From positions 18,557 to 82,556 of the forward strand of contig CAMWXE010000011.1 in NCBI GenBank assembly GCA_947178145.1: 64,000 bases of DNA, given 5' to 3'. A program made the position numbers and the translations under genes. The notes below the pieces were generated by a model, which was given only the letters and a program-made list of their open reading frames with translations, was not told where the DNA came from and ran no database searches. The DNA comes from an uncultured Lachnospiraceae bacterium. Its GTDB lineage: Bacteria > Bacillota > Clostridia > Lachnospirales > Lachnospiraceae. Shown piece after piece: positions 42,391-45,038 of the stretch. Within the stretch, counting starts at the first letter, position 1. Each line of letters opens with the position of its first letter.

Positions 42391-42669
42391 ATGAATTTGA
42401 ATTTTGAATGGGATGAAGAAAAAGCAGAAGCAAATATAAGAAAACATGGCATTTCTTTCGAGACAGCTGCAAAAGTATTCTTAGACGAAAACCGTGTTGA
42501 AATTTATGATACAGCACATAGTGAGATTGAAGAGAACCGTTTCATAACAATCGGTATGGCCGATGAAGTTTTATTTGTTGTATATACGGAACGCCAGCCA
42601 AATATTCGACTGATTTCGGCAAGATTAGCCAATACAAGAGAAAGGAGATTATATTATGGTATCGTTTAA
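42391..42669 (+). CDS. brnT: BrnT-family toxin
   Basis: NFEWDEEKAEANIRKHGISFETAAKVFLDENRVEIYD, IRLISARLANTRERRLYYG. Confidence 0.9.
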   Translation: MNLNFEWDEEKAEANIRKHGISFETAAKVFLDENRVEIYDTAHSEIEENRFITIGMADEVLFVVYTERQPNIRLISARLANTRERRLYYGIV

Positions 42670-42949
42670 ATTGGAGCCGGGAGCCCAACTATCAAATGAG
42701 GAAAAGCAAATGCTAAGAGAAGCCAAAAAACGTCCTATCGTTTACGATGCTGACTCTCCTGAGTTAACTGGCGATATGGAAAAAGCATTTATCGCTGCGA
42801 GAAAAGAAAAACCCTATAAAGTTGAACCGCTTACTGTCTATGTTTCTCCTGCAACAATAGAGAAAGCTAAATCCATTGATGGAAATTATATCGAATTATT
42901 AGGGCGTTTATTAGATAAGGCTGTCAACGAGTATACAACGATGTACTAA
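42656..42949 (+). CDS. BrnA-like antitoxin
   Basis: Overlaps the brnT 3' end; small protein with C-terminal ribbon-helix-helix-like LTVYVSPATIEKAKSIDGNYIELLGRLLDKAV. Confidence 0.65.
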   Translation: MVSFKLEPGAQLSNEEKQMLREAKKRPIVYDADSPELTGDMEKAFIAARKEKPYKVEPLTVYVSPATIEKAKSIDGNYIELLGRLLDKAVNEYTTMY

Positions 42950-42957
42950 AATGATAA

Positions 42958-43612
42958 CTAGCTGCCGCATATACGTGGCAGCTGCTTCACATCATCTACT
43001 GACAATCCATCCTCTTCCATACAGTCTGCTACAGCATGAAGCCCCTCCATGGCCCTACGCAATACTCTCAGTGGGTCTTCCTGCGGCATCGGAAACATAT
43101 CACACTCAACCAGATCCACATATGGCAGCTCGTCCTCACTCAGTTCATTGATCTCATCAATACTCATAAATCTGATCTGCCTCATTACATCTTCATCCTG
43201 ATCTATGAGATAGTCATCTGGAACTGGCGCAACCAGTCTATCAATGTTATGACAATACGTCTGTAAGGAACTGTTAAGAATTAACTTTGCAGATGACGCA
43301 GTATAAATCTTTTTATGCAAGGCGGAGGAATGAGGCGTACTGGGGTACGCCGATTGACGACAACGCGGCATAAGAAGATTTAGACAAGTCAGATGTAAAG
43401 ATTAATTCTTTAACAGTTCCTAAATATACACGCAGCAGTGATGGCATCTTCACATCGTATTCCTGCTCAAACGCATCTAACATCTCATCTGTTACCGTAG
43501 AAGGAGTCAGCAGATCTTCCGTAATCACTCCCCTGTCGATCAACGCCTGATATGCACCTTTCACAAAAGCCTTTTCGTCAAAAGCCTTTTCCGGATCTGA
43601 TCCCATATCCAT
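42958..43612 (-). pseudogene. SUKH (SMI1/KNR4)-like gene split by a 154-bp MITE-like insertion
   Basis: 5' part MDMGSDPEKAF...TVTDEMLDAFEQEYDVKMPSLLRVYL and 3' part QTYCHNIDRLVAPVPDDYLIDQDEDVMRQ...LPRICGS are in frame once 43267-43420 plus one TAA copy are removed. Family call is by motif resemblance only. Confidence 0.7.
43267..43420. mobile_element. MITE-like non-autonomous element, 154 bp, long imperfect TIRs
   Basis: Ends GGAACTGTTAAGAATTAACTTTGC... and (complement) GGAACTGTTAAAGAATTAATCTTTAC...; flanked by TAA (43264-43266) and TAA (43421-43423); central hairpin GGCGTACTGGGGTACGCC. Confidence 0.88.
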
Positions 43613-43718: not shown

Positions 43719-45038
43719 TTAAAATTTCACTGTAATCTCCAACATTCCTTCTGTGTATGCTGCCGAGATGCTCCCTCCCATACGCTCTGTCAGAAGTTTG
43801 GCGATCGAGAGTCCGAGCCCGGTACAATTTCTTCCGGTCTCCACTGTATAGAAACGGTCAAAAAGACGCTCGACAGACACCCAGTCCAGATTTTGCGCAC
43901 TGTTGCCAAACATAATCGTACCATCCGGAAACAATTCAACGGTCAGGACAGCACGCTCTGAGCGGATACAGTCCCTCTGTGAAATGCCATCTGACAATAT
44001 TATACTGTCTGATGATATCGCACCATCTGATGACACTGTACCGTCCAATGGTATTGTATTATCTGACGATGTTGTACTGTCCGAAGGTATTATACCATCT
44101 GACGGTATTGCAGGTTTACTGTATTTGACAGCATTGTCCAGTATATTGCAAAAGATCCGTCTCAGCGCTCCTGCGTCCAGAAACCGCACTACTTCCTCGT
44201 CCGCGATCGCAATCCGCGGCTCAATCCTGTTCTGTGTGAAGATATCATAGTAGGACAGCAGACAGTCTGCAAGAAAACGATTTAGCACCACCCTTTCCCT
44301 GCCTGAATCCTCTCCGGTATCAACTGCCGCCTGCTGATATCCTGTATGTTTCCCAGACACGGATAAAATGATAGAATAGCGAAAGAGTTCTTCTGTCAGC
44401 GCACACATTGCATCCGCCCTGTTTCGTATCTGCGCAAGATAATGTGTCATTTGCTCTGTAGACTGCAGACGCTGCGATGCACGTTCCCGCTCCGGCACCG
44501 ATATAGCACTCTCAGGCGATTCCTTCCGGCTCCTTTCCCCAAGTACATTGCGTCCCGACTCCTGTGCAGATGCAACTGGTGCAGCACCCCCGGGCGATTC
44601 CTTCCGGCTCCTTTCCCCGGGTGCACTGTCCCCCAGCTCCTGTACCGGGGCAGCAGCCTCTGCCGCCTCCATCTCCGCTTCCGCAAGTTCCAGATAACCA
44701 TAAATCGCAGTGAGCGGCGTGCGCAGGTCATGGGAAATATTTGTGACCGCTTCTTTGAGCTCCTTGTCGCCATTCTGGTATCTGCGCCGCTGGTCATACA
44801 GGATCTTCAATTCCTGATTCAGCTGTCTGGCAAAAGCCTTAAGATGCCTGTCATTTCCCGACACATAGATGCCATTGTTGGTGTCCTCACTCAGACGGTC
44901 ATGGAACTGCCCGCCAATCTCTTTCACCCCCTGATACAGCAACGCTATTTTGACTGCCAGCACAATGACAAGCGCGACCGCTGCAATGCAGACAAACTTC
45001 CATGGAAACATCGCTCTCTTCCCCTCTGTCAAATCCAA
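43719..45038 (-). CDS. sensor histidine kinase with repeat inserts
   Basis: N-terminal TM; VTNISHDLRTPLTAIYGYLELAE (H-box), RIFCNILDNAVKYSKP (N-box), FDRFYTVETGRNCTGLGLSIAKLLTERMGG (G-box). Confidence 0.94.
   Translation of the reverse strand: MDLTEGKRAMFPWKFVCIAAVALVIVLAVKIALLYQGVKEIGGQFHDRLSEDTNNGIYVSGNDRHLKAFARQLNQELKILYDQRRRYQNGDKELKEAVTNISHDLRTPLTAIYGYLELAEAEMEAAEAAAPVQELGDSAPGERSRKESPGGAAPVASAQESGRNVLGERSRKESPESAISVPERERASQRLQSTEQMTHYLAQIRNRADAMCALTEELFRYSIILSVSGKHTGYQQAAVDTGEDSGRERVVLNRFLADCLLSYYDIFTQNRIEPRIAIADEEVVRFLDAGALRRIFCNILDNAVKYSKPAIPSDGIIPSDSTTSSDNTIPLDGTVSSDGAISSDSIILSDGISQRDCIRSERAVLTVELFPDGTIMFGNSAQNLDWVSVERLFDRFYTVETGRNCTGLGLSIAKLLTERMGGSISAAYTEGMLEITVKF
43977..44102 (-). 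repeat. 18-bp tandem repeat (about 7 copies) inside histidine kinase ATPase domain
   Basis: Minus-strand units TCAGATGGTATAATACCT / TCGGACAGTACAACATCG / TCAGATAATACAATACCA / TTGGACGGTACAGTGTCA / TCAGATGGTGCGATATCA / TCAGACAGTATAATATTG / TCAGATGGCATTTCACAG, encoding SDGIIP-like hexapeptides. Confidence 0.85.

Follow-up and report, generated by a model that had tools for sequence, protein, structure and literature searches.

How did the SUKH-1-like gene on the minus strand of this locus come to be interrupted, and what does the interrupting sequence carry? The original prediction, made from the letters of the window (the whole 64-kb stretch of DNA analysed here), was that a 154-bp MITE-like element flanked by TAA had split the gene. 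An element of this description occupies 43267-43420, one TAA preceding it at 43264-43266 and a second following it at 43421-43423. The features to which we refer below are as follows.

42979..43263, minus strand: second portion of the interrupted gene (QTYCHN...DDVKQ), its 3′ third absent, placed by tblastn of the 262-aa orthologue.
43264..43266, no strand: left target-site duplication, TAA; one TAA at the G004 and G002 empty sites.
43267..43420, no strand: 154-bp non-autonomous MITE, with copies bearing TWA duplications in its own and related genomes, and an empty site.
43267..43277, plus strand: left terminal inverted repeat tip, GGAACTGTTAA, the same as the tips of the ISAzo13-family IS at G017:C292.
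43321..43366, plus strand: conserved structured core, GGCGGAGGAATGAG...GATTGACGACAACGC, common to elements with different ends in Bacillota and Actinomycetota.
43334..43351, plus strand: terminal hairpin GGCGTAC-TGGG-GTACGCC within the core.
43410..43420, minus strand: right terminal inverted repeat tip, GGAACTGTTAA read on the minus strand.
43421..43423, no strand: right target-site duplication, TAA; one TAA at the empty site.
43421..43612, minus strand: 5′ portion of the interrupted SUKH-1-like gene, as far as ...LLRVYL, matching the orthologue in G004 at 94%.

The element has the features by which a MITE is recognised: terminal inverted repeats (11 bp, GGAACTGTTAA, at both ends), a target-site duplication, no transposase gene and many dispersed copies. 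Folded from end to end as a single hairpin, it reaches -38.2 kcal/mol, compared with -11.4 ± 2.5 kcal/mol for shuffled sequences (z = -10.6), and this hairpin and end-repeat structure is not a product of chance. Two relatives retain the empty site. In G004, a single TAA without the element stands at the site, which reads CTGTAAATATAC, and both flanks share 96% DNA identity with the window; in G002, there is likewise one TAA, no element and an unbroken reading frame. The translations across the two sites, LLRVYLQTYCH in G004 and LLRVYLQTYSH in G002, are uninterrupted. Other copies in the element's own genome are flanked by TAA or TTA duplications, which most copies have, and the tip together with its TWA occurs 82 times in that genome, versus 14 for a reversed-pattern control, and 116 times in four relatives, versus 2 for the control. 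In G012, which is another species, a copy that matches all 154 bp exactly lies at a different place with its own TAA, and its transposition or transfer must therefore have been recent. Thus, the predicted insertion is borne out by dispersed TWA-flanked copies, by empty sites in two relatives and by a plausible parent IS (described below); other copies do exist in its own genome and in relatives, and G004 and G002 carry an uninterrupted orthologue that does not contain the element as coding DNA. The insertion itself is an ordinary event. The same genome also contains tip-only derivatives of 30-66 bp (L132, L133, L134, L135 and L138) that keep these ends and the TWA flanks, several being nearly perfect palindromes, and other MITE subfamilies of 113-177 bp (L005, L006, L008 and L129-L131) that have the same ends and different central hairpins.

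Which transposase might have moved this element? A parent was sought among tip matches paired at IS-like distances. First, an element of 1333 bp at G017:C292 lies between two TAA triplets, is bounded by GGAACTGTTAA at each end and contains a broken transposase matching PF07592 (ISAzo13; E = 3.7e-46). Second, a 1321-bp element at G014:C9, flanked by TTA on both sides, shows the first 8 bases of the tip at one of its ends and encloses an open 414-aa frame of the ISAzo13 family (PF07592). Third, a shortened ISAzo13-family element in G006 shares the subterminal sequence AAAATAACTTGTGCA with L033, a MITE of the same kind. ISAzo13 has been reported to produce 3-bp target duplications (PMC10045372). 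Given the same 11-bp tips and the 3-bp duplication, an ISAzo13-family IS is the likely parent, and we infer that a transposase of this family moved the MITE. The sequence that this MITE's subfamily has in common with the ISs found is limited to the first 11 bp and includes nothing subterminal. The candidates for the parental transposase lie in other genomes; in the element's own genome an ISAzo13-type transposase exists only as a 49-codon remnant; accordingly, the helper has been lost, was missed in the draft or resides elsewhere. The element resembles ISAzo13-family ISs, and IS-derived MITEs in general, in its 11-bp tips, 3-bp TWA duplication, palindromic form and absence of an internal gene; it differs in that its interior is a shared core, not the remnant of an IS deletion. 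A literature search for a published ISAzo13-derived MITE found none; one of the papers searched mentions both terms but describes no such element.

Other candidates for the parent were rejected. None of the PF01609 (IS4/IS5-like) transposases has the tips, and in the one case lying near a tip the IS had itself inserted into a MITE. That IS, at G022:C8:54715-56487 (L077 1716-3488), has the ends CAGACTGTAGACAAAG and interrupts a MITE that is otherwise identical; it entered the terminal hairpin of that MITE, and the 20 bp of this hairpin, AGGCGTACTGGGGTACGCCG, were duplicated on insertion. L127, a 1016-bp stretch of the element's own genome bounded by tips, probably consists of two unconnected fragments, and no transposase can be recognised in it.

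The centre of the element is less ordinary than its ends. The hairpin GGCGTAC-TGGG-GTACGCC, singled out in the original prediction, is present at 43334-43351, and the whole centre, GGCGGAGGAnnGAG-hairpin-GAYYGACGACAACG, is common to MITE-like hairpins that have other ends, arms and target sites (CTAG). Within the same genus, L003, L011 and L016 have a GCAAGGCGGAGGAATGAG-hairpin-GATTGACGACAACGCGGC middle between other ends, with CTAG at both borders; on Streptomyces plasmids, the core recurs between unrelated GC-rich arms; and the core with CTAG flanks and unrelated arms is found in Streptomyces, Nocardioides, Gordonia, Pseudonocardia and many Bacillota. Across 84,980 species genomes, a pattern scan returned at least 120 core stretches, and the matches listed lie in Actinomycetota and Bacillota. 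A covariance model detected 12 copies of the core in the element's own genome, 4 to 57 copies per genome in twelve genomes taken from the pattern scan, and, among 300 genomes of the phylum, the core in 12, one of these being the element's own. Among plasmids, the strong, full-length matches are all from Streptomyces, and the plasmid records examined have no annotated feature at the places of the elements. No core match was found in 5,426 E. coli genomes, no significant one in phage records, and 3 pattern matches were found among 2.9 million viral contigs. A search of G030 and G000 for the parent of the CTAG-type elements found none. Rfam contains no family that matches by covariance model, and literature searches with the core sequence, for MITEs in Streptomyces or Lachnospiraceae, and for RNA-carrying MITEs, returned nothing relevant; a core shared across MITE families therefore looks new. 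An open frame does run through one end of the element, as had been pointed out, but it is not a conserved coding feature, because the core measures 45, 46, 47 or 49 nt in different copies; these lengths vary out of frame and rule out a coding role for the core.

What structure does the core adopt? In 72 non-redundant copies, the arms have no conserved base and yet pair in one fixed register, which begins at the third base outside the core. An alignment of 59 copies has 89.1% of its cells paired, compared with 32-46% when the partners are slid by 1-3 columns, and the covariation score is 0.776, compared with 0.234 after shuffling; since palindromic elements covary anyway, arm covariation alone shows only palindromy. 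More informative is the internal loop, which can be read as GCG-GA-G-GA-NN-GA / GA-YY-GA-C-GA-CAA-CGC, that is, as three tandem G.A steps, and which may resemble a part of 16S rRNA. The single pair between two of the G.A steps is G-C in nearly all copies, the exceptions being A-T (L039, L324 and L342), C-G (L043) and G-T (L341), and the N1-Y2 pair of the loop is G-C in 60 copies, A-T in 51, G-T in 33 and A-C in 4. An exact pattern served to collect the largest set of cores, so that the invariance of the searched bases is partly a matter of data selection; a set of copies found by BLAST and the covariance model agrees with it. In hairpin pairs 1-6, there are 43 G.T and 3 A.C combinations, where column shuffling expects 50 and 29; this comparison is weakened by the outer region of the terminal inverted repeats, which is also skewed to G.T (111 versus 54 A.C), and by the relatedness of the copies. 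A G.T on one strand is an A.C on the other; thus, the fold of one strand seems to be selected, as for RNA. It appears that a single strand's fold, as RNA or ssDNA, is under selection, with G.U tolerated and A.C not.

In our reading, the centre of the element carries a conserved module, a rod that is capped by a hairpin and contains three tandem G.A steps, and its folded single strand (a transcript or ssDNA) appears to be under selection. Such a module could be a protein- or ribosome-binding RNA structure, or an ssDNA structure, that helps the element to spread or persist, and MITE families with different ends may have come to share it. The broader proposition, that the core is a new kind of structured nucleic acid, in which a short hairpin tops three tandem sheared G.A steps and one strand's fold is selected, and that it travels as a passenger among MITEs of different transposases in Bacillota and Actinomycetota, is one to which we give an even chance. 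For its function, a structured RNA seems most likely, the alternatives being an ssDNA structure and an old relic.

Could the core be a leftover, now without function, of one old MITE lineage whose ends drifted apart as they came to serve different transposases? The total length is fairly constant across families, mostly 153-168 bp, and families within the genus also share an outer GACGCAG/GACAAG region, as such descent would predict. However, the arms are without any similarity whereas some 25 core bases are nearly invariant in two phyla, in the covariance-model copies as well, and compensatory changes occur within the loop; we therefore consider a functionless relic rather unlikely. Somewhat less probable again is that the core acts not as RNA but as ssDNA at replication forks, where it might, for instance, guide insertion or excision. 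In six genomes in which dnaA was placed, the core strand runs toward dnaA in 32 of 40 copies (two-sided binomial p = 0.0002, post hoc), and in 20 of 26 copies once the genome of first sighting is removed. Against this, the orientation bias was noticed post hoc in a small sample, with some genomes in several contigs, and the strand that is longest single-stranded on the lagging template would be the complement of the core strand. Moreover, DDE transposases of this kind work on double-stranded ends. The orientation of the pattern-scan loci relative to genes, assessed with a simple gene caller of our own, shows 24 copies on the same strand as the flanking genes and 25 on the opposite strand, with 29 copies in convergent and 8 in divergent settings. 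This absence of strand bias argues against a cis-acting mRNA role, and a cis-regulatory role on sense transcripts was rejected for that reason.

How does the putative structured module compare with known systems? ERIC, RUP and Correia are MITE-like intergenic hairpins, and ERIC is abundant in E. coli. The elements described here resemble them as short, palindromic, non-coding sequences with many intergenic copies and strong RNA-like folds; they differ from ERIC in that their core is without a match in the E. coli genomes, and from all three in that those families are limited to narrower groups. Stem-loop repeats on Borrelia plasmids have compensatory stem changes and have been argued to be RNA-level motifs (Delihas, PMC2674063). 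The likeness lies in repeat sequences with compensatory changes in their stems, whereas here one core with a conserved asymmetric internal loop is found in elements with different ends in two phyla. Structured RNAs in Rfam likewise have covarying stems and an invariant internal loop, the difference being that no family matches the core. Should the core prove to function as an RNA or ssDNA structure, MITEs in two phyla would have in common a passenger that survives when one transposase is exchanged for another, the persistence of these hairpins would be explained, and the invariant loop would be a handle for finding the binding partner. The covariance model already finds such elements in draft genomes.

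We return to the gene. The intact orthologue in G004 (262 aa) scores 28.2 bits against Pfam SUKH-1 (PF09346; cut-off 25.4), which upholds the predicted identity of the split gene as SUKH-like, and the truncated copy in the window alone scores 17.5 bits. The tblastn match of the orthologue to the window stops at residue 159, at position 42979, and the last ~103 residues were not found anywhere in the 64-kb window. The predicted restoration of the frame on excision holds only formally: deletion of the element and one TAA does join LLRVYL to QTYCHN, but the rejoined frame has 165 aa, compared with 262 aa in the orthologue, and the whole gene is not regained. No excision event was seen, the empty sites belonging to other species, and removal of the insert would leave the gene in the window without its last ~100 residues. 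The SUKH-1-like gene is a pseudogene that has been broken twice, by the insertion and by loss of its 3′ third. The non-autonomous MITE inserted at a TAA inside the gene, duplicating the TAA, and was presumably moved there by an ISAzo13-family DDE transposase; the pseudogene has, besides this, lost its 3′ third. We are confident, with some reserve, of the reading as a whole, namely that a MITE carrying a conserved structured core was moved by an ISAzo13-family transposase into a SUKH-1-like pseudogene.

An assembly or contamination artefact at the interruption is highly improbable: the genome is reported to be 6.8% contaminated, but both flanks continue into sequence 95-96% identical in a relative, with an exact one-TAA join, and identical elements occur elsewhere in other assemblies, each with its own duplications. 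That these 154 bp simply belong to the coding or regulatory DNA of the SUKH gene, as the extension of the frame from the gene into the element might suggest, can be practically discounted, given that the element is missing from both orthologues and found at dozens of other places.

The place of the missing SUKH-1 3′ third is occupied by intact brnT/brnA-like genes (42391-42949), whereas in G004 the intact SUKH gene is adjoined by only short remnants of such genes; the region has therefore been rearranged. The stretch 42391-42949 comprises a brnT toxin gene (PF04365, 1.8e-28) and, after it, a 97-aa frame where the antitoxin gene would be expected. At 43997-44110, the C-terminal half of a histidine-kinase-like gene contains a degenerate 18/36-bp tandem repeat (SDG.I.SD).
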